A stretch of DNA of 39,873 bases from Draconibacterium orientale (GTDB lineage: Bacteria > Bacteroidota > Bacteroidia > Bacteroidales > JAADGE01): the NCBI GenBank assembly GCA_022729995.1, contig DZBS01000018.1, positions 1-39,873 on the forward strand, written 5' to 3'. The position numbers and the translations under genes are program-made. Below the pieces are notes generated by a model, which was not told where the DNA came from, did not search any database, and saw only the letters and a list, made by a program, of their open reading frames with translations. Below, piece after piece: positions 5,376 to 36,885 of this stretch (its first letter is position 1; every line of letters begins with the position of its first letter).

Positions 5376-5416
5376 AGATTCTTCTTTCGATTTACAAATA
5401 ATCGGAAGAAGAATCT
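5376..5416. terminator. hairpin terminator between convergent genes, overlapping the hydF 3' end
   Basis: AGATTCTTCTTTCGAT (5376-5391) / ATCGGAAGAAGAATCT (5401-5416), 16-bp stem with one G-T wobble. Confidence 0.7.
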
Positions 5417-6621
5417 CTGTTTTTAACAAAAGGAGCCACAGCTCTGTCAAAAATTCCTTGAATATATGCAATTGTCATTCCGTAATTTGAAACTGGAATT
5501 CCTGCATCAACAGCAGATTTCAAGCGATTTCTTAGTTGCTTTTCGGTAATCATACAACCGCCGCATTGAATTACCATTGAATATTCTTTTATATCTCTTT
5601 GCAAAGAATCCAAGCCTGCAACAACATCATATTCAATAGTTTTTCCGGTAAAATTTGTAATCCATCGCGGAATTTTTACACGACCTATATCGTCGCAAGA
5701 AGTATGATGAGTGCACGATTCAAGCAAAAGAATTCTGTCGCCGTTTTTTAGCTCCGAAATTTTTGGAGTTCCGGAAAGATATTTGTCAAAATCGCCTTTC
5801 AAACGAGCAAGTAAAATGCTGAAACTTGTTAACGGAATTTCATTTGGAATAGAAGCATCGGCTTTCTTAAAAATCTGACTGTCGGTTACAACAAGTGCCG
5901 GTTTTATTCCGGTTTTTTTCAAAAAAGTATCAACTTCTTTTTCCTTCACAACAACGGCAACACAATCGTTATCCAAAATATCTCTGATTGCCTGAACTTG
6001 CGGTAAAATCAATCTTCCGGCGGGAGCTTCAATATCAATCGGAGTAATAAGCAGAACAATATCTCCGTAAGAAATTAAATTGCCCAACAGCGACGGTTTT
6101 TTATATGCGGATTCGGGAATTGTTTTCTTAATTAAATCAATAATTTCATTAATATCATACATTTCAAAAGAAGAAAAATTAACGGTTTCAGAATTATATT
6201 CCGATTTTATTTTATCTTTTAAATTATTGGAAACTAAAGAAATATCGGCTTTATTATGAATTACAAAAAACGGACAATCATATTTTTTAAACTCACTTAT
6301 TAAATTCATTTCAAAACTTCCGAAAGAATTTTCGGAAATAACAAGAATTGCTAAATCAATTAATTTTATAGTTTCCAGAGTTTTAGAAATTCTTTGTAAA
6401 CCCAAATCGCCGGAATCGTCGATTCCGGCAGTGTCAACTAAAATTACGGGACCAAAACCTGTAATTTCAAAAGATTTTTTCACAGGATCAGTTGTTGTTC
6501 CCGGAACATCAGATACTATTGCAATTTGCTGAGAGGCAAGCATATTAATAATTGAACTTTTGCCCATATTTCTTTTTCCGTAAATACCGATATGCGGTTT
6601 TAGCTCTTTTCCTTTACTCAT
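5392..6621 (-). CDS. hydF: [FeFe] hydrogenase H-cluster maturation GTPase HydF
   Basis: Era/TrmE-like G domain (GKRNMGKSSIINML, DTAGIDDSGDLG, NKAD) plus C-terminal CTHHTSCDDIGRVKIPRW...CGGCM cluster-binding motif. Start moved to internal Met (MSKGKELKPHIGIYG). Confidence 0.93.
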   Translation of the reverse strand: MSKGKELKPHIGIYGKRNMGKSSIINMLASQQIAIVSDVPGTTTDPVKKSFEITGFGPVILVDTAGIDDSGDLGLQRISKTLETIKLIDLAILVISENSFGSFEMNLISEFKKYDCPFFVIHNKADISLVSNNLKDKIKSEYNSETVNFSSFEMYDINEIIDLIKKTIPESAYKKPSLLGNLISYGDIVLLITPIDIEAPAGRLILPQVQAIRDILDNDCVAVVVKEKEVDTFLKKTGIKPALVVTDSQIFKKADASIPNEIPLTSFSILLARLKGDFDKYLSGTPKISELKNGDRILLLESCTHHTSCDDIGRVKIPRWITNFTGKTIEYDVVAGLDSLQRDIKEYSMVIQCGGCMITEKQLRNRLKSAVDAGIPVSNYGMTIAYIQGIFDRAVAPFVKNRDSSSDYL

Positions 6622-6674
6622 ATTTTTTTGTGTAATTTTTAAATTCAAAATTCGAAAATTAAATTAAATATATG

Positions 6675-9217: not shown

Positions 9218-11926
9218 TTATCTTAAATTTGCCTGAGCTGCAGCTAATCTTGCAATAGGCACTCTGTATGGAGAGCAACTAACATAATCTAAACCTGTTC
9301 TGTGACAAAATTCAACAGAAGAAGGTTCTCCGCCGTGTTCGCCGCAAATTCCCAGTTTAATATTTGGTCTTGTTTGACGGCCTTTTTTAACAGCCATTTC
9401 AACTAATTGTCCAACGCCTTCTTGGTCGAGAACTTCAAAAGGGTCGCTTTTTAAAATTCCTTTTGCAATATAAACGGGCAGGAATTTTCCTGCGTCGTCT
9501 CTTGAATATCCAAAAGTCATTTGAGTAAGGTCGTTTGTTCCGAAAGAGAAGAATTCTGCTGATTCTGCAATTAAATCCGCAGTTAAAGCTGCTCTCGGAA
9601 TTTCAATCATTGTTCCAACCAAATGTTCGATTTTATCGTTTCTTTCAGCAAATATTTTTGCAATTGTATCTCTAACAATTACTTCTTGCATTTTCATTTC
9701 GGCTAATGTTCCTGTTAAAGGAATCATAATTTCCGGAATTGCTTTAATACCTCGCTTTTTGAGATTTAATGCAGCCTCAATAATAGCACGAGTTTGCATT
9801 TCTGTAATTTCGGGATATGTGTTTCCCAAACGACAACCTCTATGACCCAACATTGGATTTACTTCCGATAAATCTTCAACTTTTTGTTTGATAATAGAAA
9901 CATCAACTTTCATAATATCAGCCATTTCTTTTTGTCCTTTATCATCATGAGGAACAAATTCATGCAAAGGCGGATCAAGTAAACGAACAGTTACCGGTAA
10001 GTCTTTCATTGCTTCAAAAATACCTTCAAAATCGGTTCTTTGCATAGGCAATAATTTTTCAAGAGCTTTTCTTCTTTCAGTTTCATTTTCGGCAAGAATC
10101 ATTTCACGCATTGCAACAATTTTTTCGCCTTCAAAAAACATGTGTTCTGTTCTGCAAAGACCAATTCCTTTTGCTCCGAATTCGCGAGCAACTTTTGCAT
10201 CGTGAGGTGTATCGGCGTTTGTGCGAACATACATTCTTGTATATTTATCGGCAAGTTCCATAATTTTACCAAAGTCGCCGCTTAATTCAGGATCTATTGT
10301 AGCAATTTTTCCGTCGTAAACTTCACCTGTAGAACCGTTTAACGAAATCCAGTCGCCTTCTTTATATAATTTCCCGCCGGTTTCCATTGTGCGAGCTTTG
10401 TAATTAATTTTTATTGAGCCTGCACCCGAAACGCAACATTTTCCCATTCCTCTTGCAACAACAGCTGCGTGAGATGTCATACCTCCGCGAGCGGTTAAAA
10501 TACCGTTTGCAATATTCATTCCTTCCAAATCTTCCGGAGAAGTTTCTATTCTGGCTAAAATTGAGTTTGGATATTTAGCGGCTTCGTCGGCAAAGAAAAC
10601 GATTTGACCTGTTGCAGCTCCCGGAGAAGCGGGTAAACCTTTAGCTTTTACTGAAGCATTTGCAACAGCCGATTTTTCAAAAATAGGGTGAAGTAATTCA
10701 TCTAATTTTTCGGGAGATTGTCTAAAAATAGCAGTTTTTTCGTCAATCATTCCTTCATTAAGCATATCAATTGCAATTTTAACCATTGCAGCACCTGTTC
10801 GTTTACCGTTTCGAGTTTGAAGCATCCAAAGTTTTCCTTCTTGAATTGTAAATTCAATATCTTGCATGTCTTTGTAATGTTTCTCAAGATTATTTTGAAT
10901 TTCGTTCAATTCTTTATATTGTGAAGGCATTCTTTCTTCTAATGAAGGATATTTATTTTTTCGTTCTTCTTCGGTAACTTGAGCTAAAATAGCCCAACGT
11001 AAAGAGCCTTCTTTTGTTATTTGTTGCGGAGTTCGAGTTCCTGCAACAACGTCTTCACCTTGAGCATCAATTAAATATTCACCGTTGAAAAGATTTTCGC
11101 CTGTTCCTGCATCTCTTGTAAAAGCAACTCCTGTAGCAGAATCTTGTCCCATATTTCCAAAAACCATTGCTTGAACATTTACAGCAGTTCCCCAATCTCC
11201 GGGAATTTTATTCATTTTTCTGTAGTAGATTGCTCTGTCGGTGTTCCAACTGTCGAAAACCGCCATAACAGCACCCCAAAGTTGATCCCAAGGGTTTGTA
11301 GGAAAATCGTGTCCGGTTTGTTTTTTTACGGCTGCTTTGAATTTTGTAACTAATTCTTTTAAATCTTCAACAGTAAAATCTGTGTCGTTTTCAACTCCGC
11401 GAGATTCTTTAAGTTCTTCCATAATTTCTTCAAACGGGTCGATGTCTTCTTTTGATTCTGGTTTCATTCCCAAAACAACGTCGCCGTACATTTGAACAAA
11501 TCTTCGGTATGAATCCCAAGCAAATCTTTCGTTACCGGTTTTTTTAGCTATTCCTACAACTGCATCGTCGTTTAATCCGAGATTAAGAACAGTATCCATC
11601 ATTCCGGGCATTGAAACTCTTGCTCCCGAGCGAACAGAAAGCAAACAAGGATTTTCGGAAGAACCGAAACTTGTGCCCATAATTTTTTCAACATATTTTA
11701 CGGCTGCTTCAACTTCCAATTTTAAAAACTCAACAGCTTTGTCTTTTCCAAGTTCATTATATTCGGTACAAACTTCGGTTGTAATTGTAAATCCGGGAGG
11801 AACAGGAACTCCTACAAGGTTCATTTCTGCAAGGTTTGCTCCTTTTCCGCCTAATAAATTTTTCATTTCTGCTTTACCTTCAGCTTGCTTATTACCAAAA
11901 GTATAAACTCTTTTCTTGTTAATCAT
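9218..11926 (-). CDS. ppdK: pyruvate, phosphate dikinase
   Basis: Full-length about 902 aa; phospho-His motif GGMTSHAAVVARGMGK, N-terminal GGKGANLAEM, C-terminal GICGEHGGEP. Confidence 0.97.
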   Translation of the reverse strand: MINKKRVYTFGNKQAEGKAEMKNLLGGKGANLAEMNLVGVPVPPGFTITTEVCTEYNELGKDKAVEFLKLEVEAAVKYVEKIMGTSFGSSENPCLLSVRSGARVSMPGMMDTVLNLGLNDDAVVGIAKKTGNERFAWDSYRRFVQMYGDVVLGMKPESKEDIDPFEEIMEELKESRGVENDTDFTVEDLKELVTKFKAAVKKQTGHDFPTNPWDQLWGAVMAVFDSWNTDRAIYYRKMNKIPGDWGTAVNVQAMVFGNMGQDSATGVAFTRDAGTGENLFNGEYLIDAQGEDVVAGTRTPQQITKEGSLRWAILAQVTEEERKNKYPSLEERMPSQYKELNEIQNNLEKHYKDMQDIEFTIQEGKLWMLQTRNGKRTGAAMVKIAIDMLNEGMIDEKTAIFRQSPEKLDELLHPIFEKSAVANASVKAKGLPASPGAATGQIVFFADEAAKYPNSILARIETSPEDLEGMNIANGILTARGGMTSHAAVVARGMGKCCVSGAGSIKINYKARTMETGGKLYKEGDWISLNGSTGEVYDGKIATIDPELSGDFGKIMELADKYTRMYVRTNADTPHDAKVAREFGAKGIGLCRTEHMFFEGEKIVAMREMILAENETERRKALEKLLPMQRTDFEGIFEAMKDLPVTVRLLDPPLHEFVPHDDKGQKEMADIMKVDVSIIKQKVEDLSEVNPMLGHRGCRLGNTYPEITEMQTRAIIEAALNLKKRGIKAIPEIMIPLTGTLAEMKMQEVIVRDTIAKIFAERNDKIEHLVGTMIEIPRAALTADLIAESAEFFSFGTNDLTQMTFGYSRDDAGKFLPVYIAKGILKSDPFEVLDQEGVGQLVEMAVKKGRQTRPNIKLGICGEHGGEPSSVEFCHRTGLDYVSCSPYRVPIARLAAAQANLR

Positions 11927-30076: not shown

Positions 30077-32179
30077 TTAAATATTATTTCCTGTTACACT
30101 GCTAATTATTTCAGCAGCTATTTTTTCAGTTACTTCTTCATAATGTGAAAATTCCATTGTAGAAGTTGCTCTTCCCGAACTTAATGTTCTAAGAATTGTA
30201 ACGTAACCAAACATTTCCGATAACGGAACTGATGCTTTTATTGCTTTTACATTTAATTTATCTGATGCTCCCGATATTCTTCCTCGTCTTCTGTTAAGAT
30301 CGGAAATAACGTCACCCATATTTGCTTCGGGAGTTAAAACTTCAACATTCATTATTGGTTCCATAATTACGGCACCGGCTTTTTTAGCTGCATCTTTAAA
30401 TGCTATTGAAGCTGCAATTTCGAAAGAAAGTGCATCAGAATCTACATCATGATAAGAACCGTCTATTAAGGTAATTTTTAAACTTTCTGTTGGAAATCCG
30501 GCCAAAGGACCATTTTTCATTGCGTTTGTAAATCCTTTTATTATTGCAGGAATATATTCTTTTGGAATTACGCCGCCTTTTGTTGCATCTATAAATTGAA
30601 GTCCTTTTAATCCTTCATCAATTGGTCCGAGTTTAATGCTTATATCGGCAAATTTACCTCTACCTCCGGATTGTTTTTTAAACACTTCTCTATGGGTAAC
30701 TTCAATTTTAACTGCCTCTTTATATGCAACTTGTGGTCGTCCTTGATTACATTCAACATTAAATTCTCTGAAAAGTCTGTCGATTAGAATTTCTAAGTGC
30801 AATTCTCCCATTCCTGAGATAATTGTTTGTCCTGAATTTTCGTCGATTTTAACTTTGAAAGTTGGATCTTCTTCTGCTAATTTGTTAAGTGCAATTCCTA
30901 ATTTGTCTAAATCTTTTTTTGTTTTAGGTTCGATTGAAATTCCTATAACAGGTTCAGGGAATTTGATTGTTTCAAGAATTATTTGTTTGTTTTCTACAGT
31001 GAGTGTATCTCCTGTGATAACGTCTTTAAAACCTACTACTCCGCAAATATCGCCGGCAGAAACTGATTCAATCATGTTTTGCTTATTGGCGTGCATTTGA
31101 TATATGTGAGATATTCTAACTTTTTGTTTTGTACGAGGATTATATACCTGAGATCCTGATTCAAGAGTTCCTGAATAAACTCTAACGTAGGCAAGTCTTC
31201 CCACAAATCTGTCGGTACTTATTTTAAATACCAGTGCAGATAAAGGTTCTTCGGCATCAGCTTTTCTTGTAACGATTTCATCATTTTTAGGATTAATTCC
31301 TTCAACAAACGGTCTATCTAAAGGGCTTGGTAAAAACTGAACTATTCCGTCAAGTAAATGTTGAACTCCTTTATTTTTGAATGCAGAACCGCACATAACG
31401 GGAATTATTCTTCTATCTACAACAGCTTTTCTTGTTGCAGCCATAAATTCTTCAACAGAGATTGAGTCTCTGTCTTCAAAAAATCTTTCAAGCATGTTTT
31501 CGTCTTGTTCTACGATAGCTTCAATTAGTTTTTCTCTCCATTCTTCAACTTCTGCTTCCATTTCTTGAGGAATTGGAACGAAGCCGTAATTTACGCCAAG
31601 TTTGTCGTCTTCTGTCCAAAGTACAGCTTTTCTTTGAACTAAATCAATAAAGCCTTTAAAATTCTCTTCGGCTCCTATGGGAATTTGAATTGGAATAGCG
31701 TTTGCTCCAAGTCTTTCATTAATTTGTTCAACTACTGCAAAAAAATCCGCCCCTGCTCTATCCATTTTGTTGATAAAAGCGATTCTCGGGACATTATATT
31801 TATCAGCTTGTCTCCAAACTGTTTCAGATTGTGGTTCAACACCGCCGACTGCGCAAAAAACTGCAACGGCACCATCTAAAACCCTGAGAGAACGTTCAAC
31901 TTCAACAGTAAAATCAACGTGTCCGGGAGTATCGATTATATTTATTTTAAAGTCTTCATCTTGGAATTTCCAATATGTAGTGGTTGCAGCAGAAGTAATT
32001 GTAATACCTCTTTCTTGTTCTTGCTCCATCCAATCCATGGTTGCAGCTCCATCATGAACCTCACCTATTTTGTAATTCACTCCCGTGTAAAACAAAACAC
32101 GCTCGGTTGTTGTTGTCTTTCCGGCATCAATGTGTGCCATGATGCCAATGTTTCTTGTATGTTTTAAATCTGTTGCCAT
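30077..32179 (-). CDS. fusA: canonical elongation factor G
   Basis: [42 protein letters not shown]: all canonical G motifs intact. Confidence 0.98.
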
Positions 32180-32187
32180 TTTAATTT

Positions 32188-32664
32188 TTAGAACCTAAAG
32201 TGTGCAAAAGCTTTGTTTGCTTCTGCCATTCTGTGCATATCTTCTTTTCTTTTAAATGCTCCGCCTTCTTCGTTGTATGCATCTAATATTTCACTTGCTA
32301 ATTTTTCGCTCATTGATTTACCTTTTCTGTTGCGAGCATAAGAAATAAGATTTTTCATGCAAACAGAAACTTTTCTGTCTGCTCTTATTTCCATTGGAAC
32401 TTGGAATGTTGCTCCGCCTACTCTTCTGCTTTTAACTTCAACGTGTGGAGTTACATTTTCAAGTGCTTTTTTCCAAATTTCAAGGTTTGTTCCTTCTATG
32501 TCTTTTTTACGTAGTTCAACTATTTCAAGTGCTCCGTAAAAAATATTGAAAGAAGTAGTTTTTTTTCCGTTAAGCATCAAATTATTTACAAATTGTGTAA
32601 CTAATTTGTCGTTAAATTTTGAATCGGGAGTAATTTCTCTCTTTTTTGATCTAGCTTTTCTCAT
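32188..32664 (-). CDS. rpsG: 30S ribosomal protein S7
   Basis: [35 protein letters not shown]...[20 protein letters not shown]. Confidence 0.98.
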
Positions 32665-32683: not shown

Positions 32684-33061
32684 TTATTTTTTCTTTGGAG
32701 TTTTTGTACCGTATTTTGAGCGTCTTTGAGTTCTGCCGTCAACTCCTTGAGTATCCAATGTTCCTCTTATAATGTGATATCTAACACCCGGTAAATCTTT
32801 AACTCTTCCGCCTCTAACCAACACTATAGAGTGTTCTTGCAGATTATGTCCTTCTCCCGGAATGTATGCATTTATTTCTTTTCCGTTTGTTAATCTTACT
32901 CTGGCAACTTTTCTCATTGCAGAGTTAGGTTTTTTAGGAGTTGTTGTATAAACTCTCACGCATACTCCTCGTCTTTGAGGGCATGAATCTAATGCAGGAG
33001 ATTTACTTTTTACTTCGATGCTCTTGCGTCCTTTTCTTACTAATTGTTGAATTGTAGGCAT
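32684..33061 (-). CDS. rpsL: 30S ribosomal protein S12
   Basis: [60 protein letters not shown]. Confidence 0.98.
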
Positions 33062-33097
33062 ATATTATATTAAAATATTTTAGTTATTTTCGGCTTG

Positions 33098-33127
33098 CAA
33101 AGGTAAAATTATTTTAATTCAATCCAA
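33098..33127 (-). promoter_or_regulatory. promoter P1 of the str-S10 superoperon
   Basis: Reverse strand TTG-N19-TACCTTTG matches the Bacteroidota -33/-7 consensus (TTG / TAnnTTTG); predicted leader about 30 nt before the rpsL ATG. Confidence 0.75.
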
Positions 33128-33241
33128 CTCTTTTAAAAATAATTTTAAAAAAAAATCATCTTTTTTATTGTTACTAAAAGTATTGATGACTTTTTATTAA
33201 TTTTAAAAGGCTTATTGAATGCTTCCGAATTATTAAGAGTG

Positions 33242-33249
33242 CAAAGTTA
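33242..33249 (-). promoter_or_regulatory. candidate upstream promoter P2 of the str operon (-7 element TAACTTTG)
   Basis: Reverse strand exact TAnnTTTG; -33 region imperfect. Confidence 0.45.
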
Positions 33250-33460
33250 ATTTATTTTATTGAAATATAAAGTTAATAAATCCTTATTCCACAGTTTTTT
33301 TTTAATTTTAATATCACATATTTTAATTTTGTAATACATTATATAAGGTGTAATAAATATTGCATTTTATGCTTTATAAATACGACTATTGAATTTAAAT
33401 AATTATTTTACAGTGTTATATTGAGAAAATATGATTTATAACATAAAACATATTATACTA

Positions 33461-33490
33461 TTGAATGTTATGTTTTTTTTTTTATTTTTG
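33461..33490 (+). promoter_or_regulatory. promoter of the EF-G2-like gene
   Basis: TTG (33461-33463)-N19-TATTTTTG (33483-33490), matching the Bacteroidota -33/-7 consensus; about 50 nt upstream of the ATG. Confidence 0.7.
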
Positions 33491-33541
33491 CATGCTACAT
33501 TAATTTCTAGCGAATAAAAATCACATTCAAAATCATATAAA

Positions 33542-35698
33542 ATGAAAATTTACCAAACAGGAGAAATCAGAAATATTGCATTAATCGGTAACGCAGGTTC
33601 AGGAAAAACCACGTTTGCCGAAGATATGCTTTTTGAAGGCGGGAAAATAACAAGAAGAGGAGCAATTGATTCCAAGAATACTGTATCAGACTATAGATTA
33701 GTTGAACACGAGCAAGGAGGATCTGTTTTTTCATCAGTTTTAAATACCGAATTGAACGGGGTAAAAATCAATATACTTGATGCTCCCGGTGCTATAGATT
33801 TTATTGGCGGAGCTGTTTCGTCGATGAGTATTACAGACACAGCAATTTTGTTTTTGAATTCGCAAAACGGAATTGAAGTTGGAACAGAAATTCATTGGAG
33901 ACAAGCCGACAGGTTGAAAAAACCTGTTATGATAATAGCAAATCATTTAGACCACGATAAAACAAATTTTGACAAAACTATTGACGAAGCCAAAGAAAAA
34001 TTAGGCAAAGGAGTAGTTTTAGTTCAATATCCCGTAAATCCGGGAACCGAATTTAATGCCATTATCGATTTGATAATGATGAAAATGTATAAATGGGATG
34101 AGAAATCTGAAAAAGTTGAAGAATTAGAAATTCCTGACAGCGAAAAAGAAAAAGCAGAAGAATTGAGGAATACTTTAATTGAAGCTGCCGCAGAAAATGA
34201 CGAAAAATTGATGGAAGTATTCTTTGAAAAAGAAACACTGACCCAAGACGAAATGCGAAAAGGAATTTTAGCAGGCATCTTAAACCGTGGATTGTTTCCT
34301 GTTATGTGCTCATCGGCAAAGAAAAATTTCGGAACAAAAAGAATCATGGAATTTATAAAAAACGCATTACCTTCTCCCGACAAAGCTGCGACTCCTGTTA
34401 CAGTGGAAAACCAAGAAATAAAATGCGATTCGACCGGAAAAAAATCTTTATTTGTATTTAAAATGTCTGTTGAAGAGCATTTGGGAGAAGTTGTATTCTT
34501 CAAAGTAATGTCGGGCAAAATTAGCGAAGGAGAAGATTTAATCAATTCAAAAAACAGTTCAAAAGAAAGAGTTTCACAAATTTTTGTATCCAACGGAAAA
34601 ACACGTGAAAATGTTACCGAAATAAACGCCGGTGATATTGGAGCAACCGTTAAATTAAAATCAACCAAAGGAGAAAATACTTTGAGCGAAAAAGGTGCTG
34701 AATACGTATTCCCTAAAATAAAATATCCGAATCCAAAATATCGTGCAGCAATAAAAGCACTTAGTGAATCCGACGAAGAAAAACTTGGTGAATATTTGCA
34801 CAAAATGCGAGATGAAGACCCAACATATATATTAGAATATTCTACAGAATTAAGACAGTTGATTATCCATTCACAAGGCGAGCACCATTTAAATACATTA
34901 AAATGGCATCTTGACAATATATTTAAATTACAAGCAGAATTTATTGCACCAAAAATTGCATACAGAGAAACAATTACGAAATGTTCTCAGGCAGACTACA
35001 GACACAGAAAACAATCAGGAGGTTCAGGTCAATTTGGCGAAGTTCACATGATTATAGAACCTTTTGAGGACGGAAAAGTAAAACCGTCTGCTTTTAAAAT
35101 TGACGGCAAAGAATATGTTGTAAACGTTAGAGACACACAAGAATTTGAACTAAAATGGGGTGGAAAACTTGTATTTTGTAATTGCATTGTTGGAGGTGTT
35201 ATTGAAGCAAGTTATATGCCTGCAATTGTTAAAGGTTTAATGGAAAAAATGGAATTTGGTCCTTTAACAGGAAGTTATGCAAGAGATATCAGAGTTAGCG
35301 TTTACGACGGAAAAATGCACTCTGTTGATTCAAACGAAATTTCATTTAAATTAGCCGGAGCAAAAGCTTTCTCTGATGCATTCAAAAAAGCGGGACCAAA
35401 AATTCTTGAACCTATTTACAATTTAGAAATTATGGTTCCGGGCGACAGAATGGGAGACGTAATGAGTGATTTACAAGGAAGAAGAGCAATAATCCAAGGC
35501 ATGTCAAGCGAAAAAGGATTTGAGGTAGTTAAAGCCAAAATCCCGTTGGCTGAAATCACAAAATATGCAACTGCATTGAGTTCAATAACAGGCGGAAGAG
35601 CAACATTTGAAACAGAATTTTCGGAATATGCTCCCGTTCCCGGAGATTTACAAGATAAACTTATTAAAGCTCATGCTGAAGAAGAAGACGAAGAATAA
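33542..35698 (+). CDS. fusA2: EF-G paralog (EF-G2/FusA2-like) with degenerate GTPase motifs
   Basis: Full-length EF-G architecture with P-loop GNAGSGKTT; DTPGH replaced by DAPGA, RGITI by QGGSVFS, NKxD by NHLD; C-terminal EF-G domains (KQSGGSGQFGEV, EISFKLAGAKAFSDAFKKAGPKILEPI, GDRMGDVMSDLQGRR) retained. Confidence 0.92.
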   Translation: MKIYQTGEIRNIALIGNAGSGKTTFAEDMLFEGGKITRRGAIDSKNTVSDYRLVEHEQGGSVFSSVLNTELNGVKINILDAPGAIDFIGGAVSSMSITDTAILFLNSQNGIEVGTEIHWRQADRLKKPVMIIANHLDHDKTNFDKTIDEAKEKLGKGVVLVQYPVNPGTEFNAIIDLIMMKMYKWDEKSEKVEELEIPDSEKEKAEELRNTLIEAAAENDEKLMEVFFEKETLTQDEMRKGILAGILNRGLFPVMCSSAKKNFGTKRIMEFIKNALPSPDKAATPVTVENQEIKCDSTGKKSLFVFKMSVEEHLGEVVFFKVMSGKISEGEDLINSKNSSKERVSQIFVSNGKTRENVTEINAGDIGATVKLKSTKGENTLSEKGAEYVFPKIKYPNPKYRAAIKALSESDEEKLGEYLHKMRDEDPTYILEYSTELRQLIIHSQGEHHLNTLKWHLDNIFKLQAEFIAPKIAYRETITKCSQADYRHRKQSGGSGQFGEVHMIIEPFEDGKVKPSAFKIDGKEYVVNVRDTQEFELKWGGKLVFCNCIVGGVIEASYMPAIVKGLMEKMEFGPLTGSYARDIRVSVYDGKMHSVDSNEISFKLAGAKAFSDAFKKAGPKILEPIYNLEIMVPGDRMGDVMSDLQGRRAIIQGMSSEKGFEVVKAKIPLAEITKYATALSSITGGRATFETEFSEYAPVPGDLQDKLIKAHAEEEDEE

Positions 35699-35808: not shown

Positions 35809-36885
35809 ATGAAAATACTTGACAAATATATAATTCGTAAGTTTCTGAGTACTTTTGTTTTTTCTATAATCCTTATAATAAGTATAGCAATTATTATCGA
35901 CCTTACAGAAAAAATGGATAATTTTATAGAAAAACAAGCTCCGCTTAACGCAATTATTTTTGCATATTACATGAACTTTATTCCATATTACACAAATCTT
36001 TTCATGTTTCTGTTTATTTTCATTTCTGTTGTATTTTTCACTTCAAAAATGGCAGGAAGATTAGAAATAATTGCAATGATAAGCAGCGGAATAAGCTTCA
36101 ACAGATTAATGTTTCCATATTTTATTTCTGCACTTTTATTAGGAATTTTGTCTTTCGTTCTGAGTAATTTTATTATTCCGCCTGCCAATGCTGTGAGGCT
36201 AAAGTTCGAAAATACTTATATAAACGGCACTTATTATCACAGCGGAAGGAATATTCATAAGCAAATTTCTCCGGGTGTTTTTCTGTATGTAGAAAATTTT
36301 AATACATTAAATAATTCGGCAAACCAATTTTCTTTAGAAAAATACAGCAAAAAAGAAATGGTTTCAAAACTTATGGCTCCGCGTGCAATCTGGGACAGCA
36401 CAAAAAACAAATGGCATTTAACACAATACTATATTAGAAATATTAACGGCGACAAACAAAGAATTATTGAAGGAAGAAACCTCGACACTGCAGTTAATAT
36501 TACACCAAAAGATTTTAAAAGACGAGATGCCGAAAAATCTACAATGAATTATAGAGAACTTAACGAATACATTAGCGAAATAAAATTAAGAGGAGAATCA
36601 AATTTAAACACATATTTGCTTGAAAAAAATCAGCGATGGGCATTCCCGTTTTCTACTTTTATTTTAACTTTAATAGGCGTTTCGTTAGCTTCTAAAAAAA
36701 CAAGAGGCGGAACCGGAATGAATATCGGTATTGGAATTCTGATAAGTTTTGCATATATTTTTCTTATGAGAATGTCGGCACAGTTTTCAATAAAAGGAAA
36801 TTTATCTCCTGTATTGTCGGCTTGGATTCCAAATTTAATATTTCTAATTTTAGGAGGATTTCTTTACAGAATTGCTCCAAAATAA
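35809..36885 (+). CDS. LptF/LptG-type permease (YjgP/YjgQ family), probable lipopolysaccharide export permease
   Basis: MKILDKYIIRKFLSTFVFSIILIISIAIIIDLTEKMDNF; six-TM layout with central soluble domain; C-terminal KKTRGGTGMNIGIGI. Confidence 0.92.
   Translation: MKILDKYIIRKFLSTFVFSIILIISIAIIIDLTEKMDNFIEKQAPLNAIIFAYYMNFIPYYTNLFMFLFIFISVVFFTSKMAGRLEIIAMISSGISFNRLMFPYFISALLLGILSFVLSNFIIPPANAVRLKFENTYINGTYYHSGRNIHKQISPGVFLYVENFNTLNNSANQFSLEKYSKKEMVSKLMAPRAIWDSTKNKWHLTQYYIRNINGDKQRIIEGRNLDTAVNITPKDFKRRDAEKSTMNYRELNEYISEIKLRGESNLNTYLLEKNQRWAFPFSTFILTLIGVSLASKKTRGGTGMNIGIGILISFAYIFLMRMSAQFSIKGNLSPVLSAWIPNLIFLILGGFLYRIAPK

Follow-up and report, generated by a model that had tools for sequence, protein, structure and literature searches.

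A second elongation factor G of the EF-G2 type encoded divergently from a str-type operon in Draconibacterium orientale

Our analysis indicates that the window (the whole stretch of Draconibacterium orientale DNA that was analysed, 39,873 nucleotides) encodes, in addition to a canonical elongation factor G, a further member of the EF-G2 kind already known from Bacteroides. A profile, a tree and an insert in domain IV all support orthology of this second gene, fusA2, with the EF-G2 family of Bacteroides, and we consider it likely, taking the explanation as a whole, that fusA2 is activated by a Cur-like regulator on carbon shortage and that its product translocates without GTP hydrolysis, or with hydrolysis strongly reduced.

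Results

The genes and the intergenic region on which the analysis centres are the following:

33542 to 35698, plus strand: fusA2, EF-G2 (EFG II subfamily), 718 amino acids (ORF, NCBIfam, Pfam and tree)
33062 to 33541, unstranded: intergenic region of 480 bp separating the divergent genes rpsL and fusA2 (ORF map; layout conserved in relatives)
32684 to 33061, minus strand: rpsL (S12), which heads the divergent str-type operon (ORF read by eye)
32188 to 32664, minus strand: rpsG (S7) (ORF read by eye)
30077 to 32179, minus strand: fusA, canonical EF-G, GTPase motifs all intact (TIGR00484 and motifs)

The fusA2 reading frame starts with ATG and has no internal stop, and its 718-residue product contains all five Pfam domains of EF-G (GTP_EFTU, EF-G D2, EFG_III, EFG_IV and EFG_C). 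It scores 1162.1 bits against the NCBIfam profile NF058620 (EFG2_Bacteroid, cut-off 1000), compared to just 479.9 bits for the fusA product of the same window; with the canonical EF-G profile TIGR00484 (cut-off 659.4) it reaches 524.4 bits and the fusA product 1022.8 bits. The canonical motifs RGITI, DTPGH and NKMD are absent from it. In a maximum likelihood tree of 83 proteins (quick LG+G4 search with SH-aLRT support, without bootstrap, and with spdEFG2 sequences left out), a branch with 100% SH-aLRT support parts 58 EF-G2s from 19 canonical EF-G and Tet rows, and the fusA2 product lies in a 20-row clade (SH-aLRT 98) nested in a 32-row clade (100) together with the Bacteroides-type proteins L006 and L007. 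The first-pass annotation had taken the protein for an ortholog of B. thetaiotaomicron EF-G2, a claim borne out by the profile score, by the placement among EF-G2s and away from EF-G and Tet proteins, and by the shared domain-IV insert described below; a position outside the EF-G2 clade, which would have counted against it, was not seen.

The EFG II subfamily is defined by the loss of RGITI with a Ser in its fourth position (Margus et al., 2011, PMC3150367). The fusA2 product shows this loss with Ser at position 4, has the P-loop Gly and is encoded alongside an EFG I; unlike the subfamily at large, it has Phe where a nearly invariant Leu follows the P-loop. It resembles the B. thetaiotaomicron protein (fusA2, BT_2167; NF058620) in passing the cut-off of the subfamily profile, in its length of 718 residues, and in having an upstream Cur-like palindrome and a Bacteroidota-type promoter. 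The features of the coding sequence that bear on mechanism, all on the plus strand, are:

33587 to 33613: P-loop (G1) GNAGSGKTT, residues 16-24, retained (codon arithmetic, alignment)
33710 to 33736: switch I (G2) EQGGSVFSS, replacing ERGITITSA of fusA, with Ser61 kept at the Mg-coordinating Thr position (alignment with the window's own fusA)
33779 to 33793: G3 DAPGA, residues 80-84, with Ala84 in place of the catalytic His (alignment)
33941 to 33952: G4 NHLD, residues 134-137, replacing NKxD (alignment)
35072 to 35155: domain-IV insert of 28 residues (511-538) that canonical EF-G lacks (alignment)

Codon arithmetic puts the P-loop, G3 and G4 exactly where they had first been read, and alignment agrees with the loss of the His and with the replacement of RGITI by QGGSVFS in switch I. 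Since the GTPase motifs of the fusA product are all intact, GSA included, as had also been claimed, that protein is a valid internal control. The changes in fusA2 are thus real, but to call its catalytic motifs degraded, as the first-pass annotation did, overstates them: all 58 EF-G2s keep the P-loop GK (with T as the next residue in 56 and S in the other 2) and Asp80, every one of them has S or T at position 61, where EF-G has its Mg-coordinating Thr, and N134 is conserved in 57. The nucleotide pocket has been remodelled, with its phosphate and Mg ligands apparently still under selection, and the invariant GK and Asp80 suggest that nucleotide binding, possibly hydrolysis, is still selected for. 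The catalytic His is found in none of the 58, its place being taken by A (22), Y (14), F (8), L (8), S (4), P (1) or M (1), and its loss is therefore common to the whole EF-G2 group.

The G3 of T. thermophilus EFG II (EF-G-2; PDB 1wdt/2dy1) also lacks the His and reads LLDAPGYGDF, with Tyr at this position (the 1wdt G-domain letters used were identical to the PDB chain at 147 of 147 positions). This member of the EFG II subfamily is nevertheless reported to be GTPase-active, with a higher intrinsic activity than EFG I, and to function in poly(Phe) synthesis at a slightly lower level (PMC3150367). Motif loss alone accordingly says little in favour of an enzyme without GTPase activity, the His being absent across EF-G2s and from one reported to be active. 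The earlier interpretation is upheld in part: orthology and the starvation role gain support, but the altered motifs do not by themselves warrant the step to a GTPase-free translocase. It could be argued from the Thermus protein, and from the conservation of GK, Asp80 and Ser/Thr61, that the fusA2 product still hydrolyses GTP, slowly or intrinsically, as an auxiliary translocase whose role in starvation comes from its regulation and not from GTP saving. We think this unlikely, though it is the most serious of the alternatives: T. thermophilus EFG II belongs to a distant subgroup; of the EF-G2 groups for which functional data exist, that of Bacteroides is the nearest and is described as GTP-independent (PMC10294740); and the fusA2 product shares 56% overall identity and the domain-IV insert with that group.

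This insert appears as a difference in length between flanking conserved columns, which enclose 53 residues in the fusA2 product and 25 in the window's fusA. The same span has 23-27 residues in the canonical EF-G and Tet rows (37 in one pair), 24 in L089 and L095, the earliest-branching EFG II rows, which have no insert, 44 in 28 EF-G2s, and 53-55 in 30 of the 58 EF-G2s, including nearly all of those of fusA2's order. The insert is thus about 19 residues long in most other Bacteroidota EF-G2s and 28 in fusA2's order, and the 28-residue form is also present in L006 and L007. In B. thetaiotaomicron EF-G2, a 26-residue region unique to that factor is reportedly responsible for the missing GTPase activity and for ribosome release. 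The 28-residue insert resembles that region, and we infer that the two are the same; it would then be a stronger pointer to the GTPase-free type than the loss of the His. The mechanism of the fusA2 product should, in our view, be argued from orthology and from this insert, not from the His, and on that basis a GTPase-free, energy-sparing mechanism is plausible.

The domains that face the ribosome are the best preserved. Domains IV (75% identity) and V (68%) are the most similar to those of Bacteroides-type EF-G2, and the G domain (49%) is the least similar; to EF-G2s of the order, domains IV and V of the fusA2 product are 68-87% identical, and His593 at the tip of domain IV is invariant in the alignment. 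This pattern fits a retained ribosome-facing role, and the earlier statement that the ribosome-binding domains are retained agrees with it and with the five Pfam domains. An AlphaFold2 model of the fusA2 product, built with its own fusA as the sole second row, had a mean pLDDT of 37 and was discarded. L006 and L007, which were compared in place of BT_2167, share the His-less G3 and the domain-IV insert with the fusA2 product and differ from it in detail, with DCPGS or DCPGA in G3 (DAPGA here), YGYSV in G2 (QGGSV here) and NQLD in G4 (NHLD here). The guanine-recognition residues are altered further in parts of the family than in the fusA2 product itself: G4 is NHLN, without the Asp, in six relatives (L038, L039, L040, L042, L044 and L046), whose G5 is TAAK, and the G5 Ser is replaced by Ala in 13 EF-G2s.

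The best PDB match of the fusA2 product is 7uvp/8dmf, a chain of 718 residues whose alignment covers the full length at 911 bits, with a His-less G3 (DCPGS) and the domain-IV insert, yet was deposited as Tetracycline resistance protein TetQ. On the strength of that name, fusA2 might be read as encoding a factor that protects ribosomes (Tet-like) or is specialised in recycling (spdEFG2-like), and not a translocase. This is very improbable, and the Tet-like reading was rejected: the Tet profiles score far under their cut-offs (256.2 bits for tet_protect, whose cut-off is 775, and 125 for Tet(Q), whose cut-off is 1425), and the Tet-like rows of the tree, from which spdEFG2 was left out, fall with canonical EF-G and apart from the EF-G2 clade. 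Because the chain aligns with EF-G2 along its whole length, the name looks like a misannotation, and 7uvp/8dmf appears to be a Bacteroides-type EF-G2.

Scarcely credible, and likewise rejected, is the view that fusA2 is a decaying, non-functional paralogue, for which one could cite the altered GTPase motifs and an EF-G2 gene broken across contigs in a genome of the same genus (G298), but against which stand the intact frame here and in nearly all relatives, the conservation of domains IV and V and of promoter elements, and the position of that break near a contig end, where it may be an assembly join. The broken gene (L102, on contig C211 of G298) is interrupted at residue 471, with its 3' part on C482, and is followed by AT-rich sequence with a hemerythrin-like reading in reverse; the break is probably an assembly join and possibly an insertion. 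Several relatives in the family also have a third EF-G of about 690-700 residues (for example L084 and L096), and none was found in fusA2's own whole genome (G000).

Most members of the family share the divergent arrangement of fusA2 and rpsL-rpsG-fusA: it recurs in 11 further genomes of this family (G298, G299, G301, G305, G307, G309, G311, G312, G314, G316 and G317) and in three further families of the order (G323, G324 and G331). It is absent from G306, G310, G327, G332 and G319 and from both Bacteroides-type genomes, where EF-G2 instead has for neighbours what look like hemW and an RprXY-like two-component pair. An LptF/LptG-type permease gene (35809 to 36885, plus strand) lies 3' of fusA2, an adjacency kept in two genomes whose str operon lies at another place (G306 and G310). 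The window also encodes, as first noted, a HydF-like GTPase (5392 to 6648, minus strand) and a pyruvate phosphate dikinase (ppdK; 9218 to 11926, minus strand), both read by eye.

Within the intergenic region, three elements could contribute to the control of fusA2:

33430 to 33445, unstranded: Cur/BT4338-like palindrome TATGATTTATAACATA, one mismatch to TATGTTnTAnAACATA (consensus match, PMC6989115)
33461 to 33463, plus strand: putative -33 element TTG (read by eye; also present at the corresponding position in the aligned upstream regions of many relatives)
33483 to 33490, plus strand: putative Bacteroidota -7 element TATTTTTG (TAnnTTTG); most EF-G2 genes of the family are preceded by TAnnTTTG at a comparable distance

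In B. thetaiotaomicron, BT4338 (Cur) binds a palindrome with this consensus in the fusA2 promoter, and carbon limitation raises fusA2 238-fold and lowers fusA 10-fold (PMC6989115). The Cur-like site of fusA2 lies 37 bp upstream of the -7 element. Searching the region 35-72 bp upstream of the -7 element in ten non-redundant family members with TATGTTnTAnAACATA gave combined P values of 3e-7 and 4e-6 in two runs, which are optimistic since the distance window was picked after viewing the alignment and the relatives are not independent; controls with four scrambled (reversed or swapped) consensuses and two adjacent windows gave P values of 0.46-1. The signal is clear in five of the ten (the window, L038, L040, L044 and L050) and undetectable in several family members (L036, L037, L042 and L043), so that the position of the site is conserved in about half of the relatives. 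Genome-wide, the consensus is not enriched (4 sites, compared to 10 for the reversed control), and none of the three other sites precedes genes that are evidently for sugar use. A protein of the CRP family encoded in the genome, L070, is 48% identical to L124 of a Bacteroides-type genome, with an identical stretch LSNMTTSNAIRTLS in the DNA-binding domain, and the pair are candidate Cur-like regulators. The predicted site supports, independently of orthology, the starvation role proposed in the first-pass annotation, with the reservation that its position is conserved in only about half of the relatives.

Discussion

Bacteroides EF-G2 has been described as enabling GTP-independent translation (PMC10294740), and the explanation that we favour is that fusA2 encodes the same kind of factor. 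When carbon is short, a Cur-like activator of the CRP family would bind some 37-60 bp ahead of the -7 element and turn fusA2 on. The EF-G2 produced would bind the ribosome and drive tRNA-mRNA translocation slowly, either without GTP hydrolysis or with hydrolysis strongly reduced, and could thereby keep translation going as canonical EF-G falls. We infer the GTPase-free mechanism from the absence of the catalytic His together with the domain-IV insert, which would handle release from the ribosome.

The 480-bp region shared with the str-type operon would suit a reciprocal control of EF-G and EF-G2, an idea that can be carried further. In some relatives both the Asp of G4 (NHLN) and the Ser of G5 (TAAK) are lost. 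A bolder proposal, which we regard as rather improbable, is that EF-G2 in this family is evolving past the Bacteroides state to a translocase that is no longer specific for guanine, and that the divergent promoter region which it has in common with the canonical translation operon exchanges EF-G for EF-G2 on starvation.

The classes of EF-G2 without an insert, with about 19 residues and with 28 residues, together with the His-less but reportedly active Thermus protein, form a natural series in which one can ask which change abolished GTP hydrolysis. The identification of fusA2 widens the range of the starvation EF-G2, and with it that of the domain-IV insert and the predicted Cur-like promoter site, past Bacteroides to another family of the same order.
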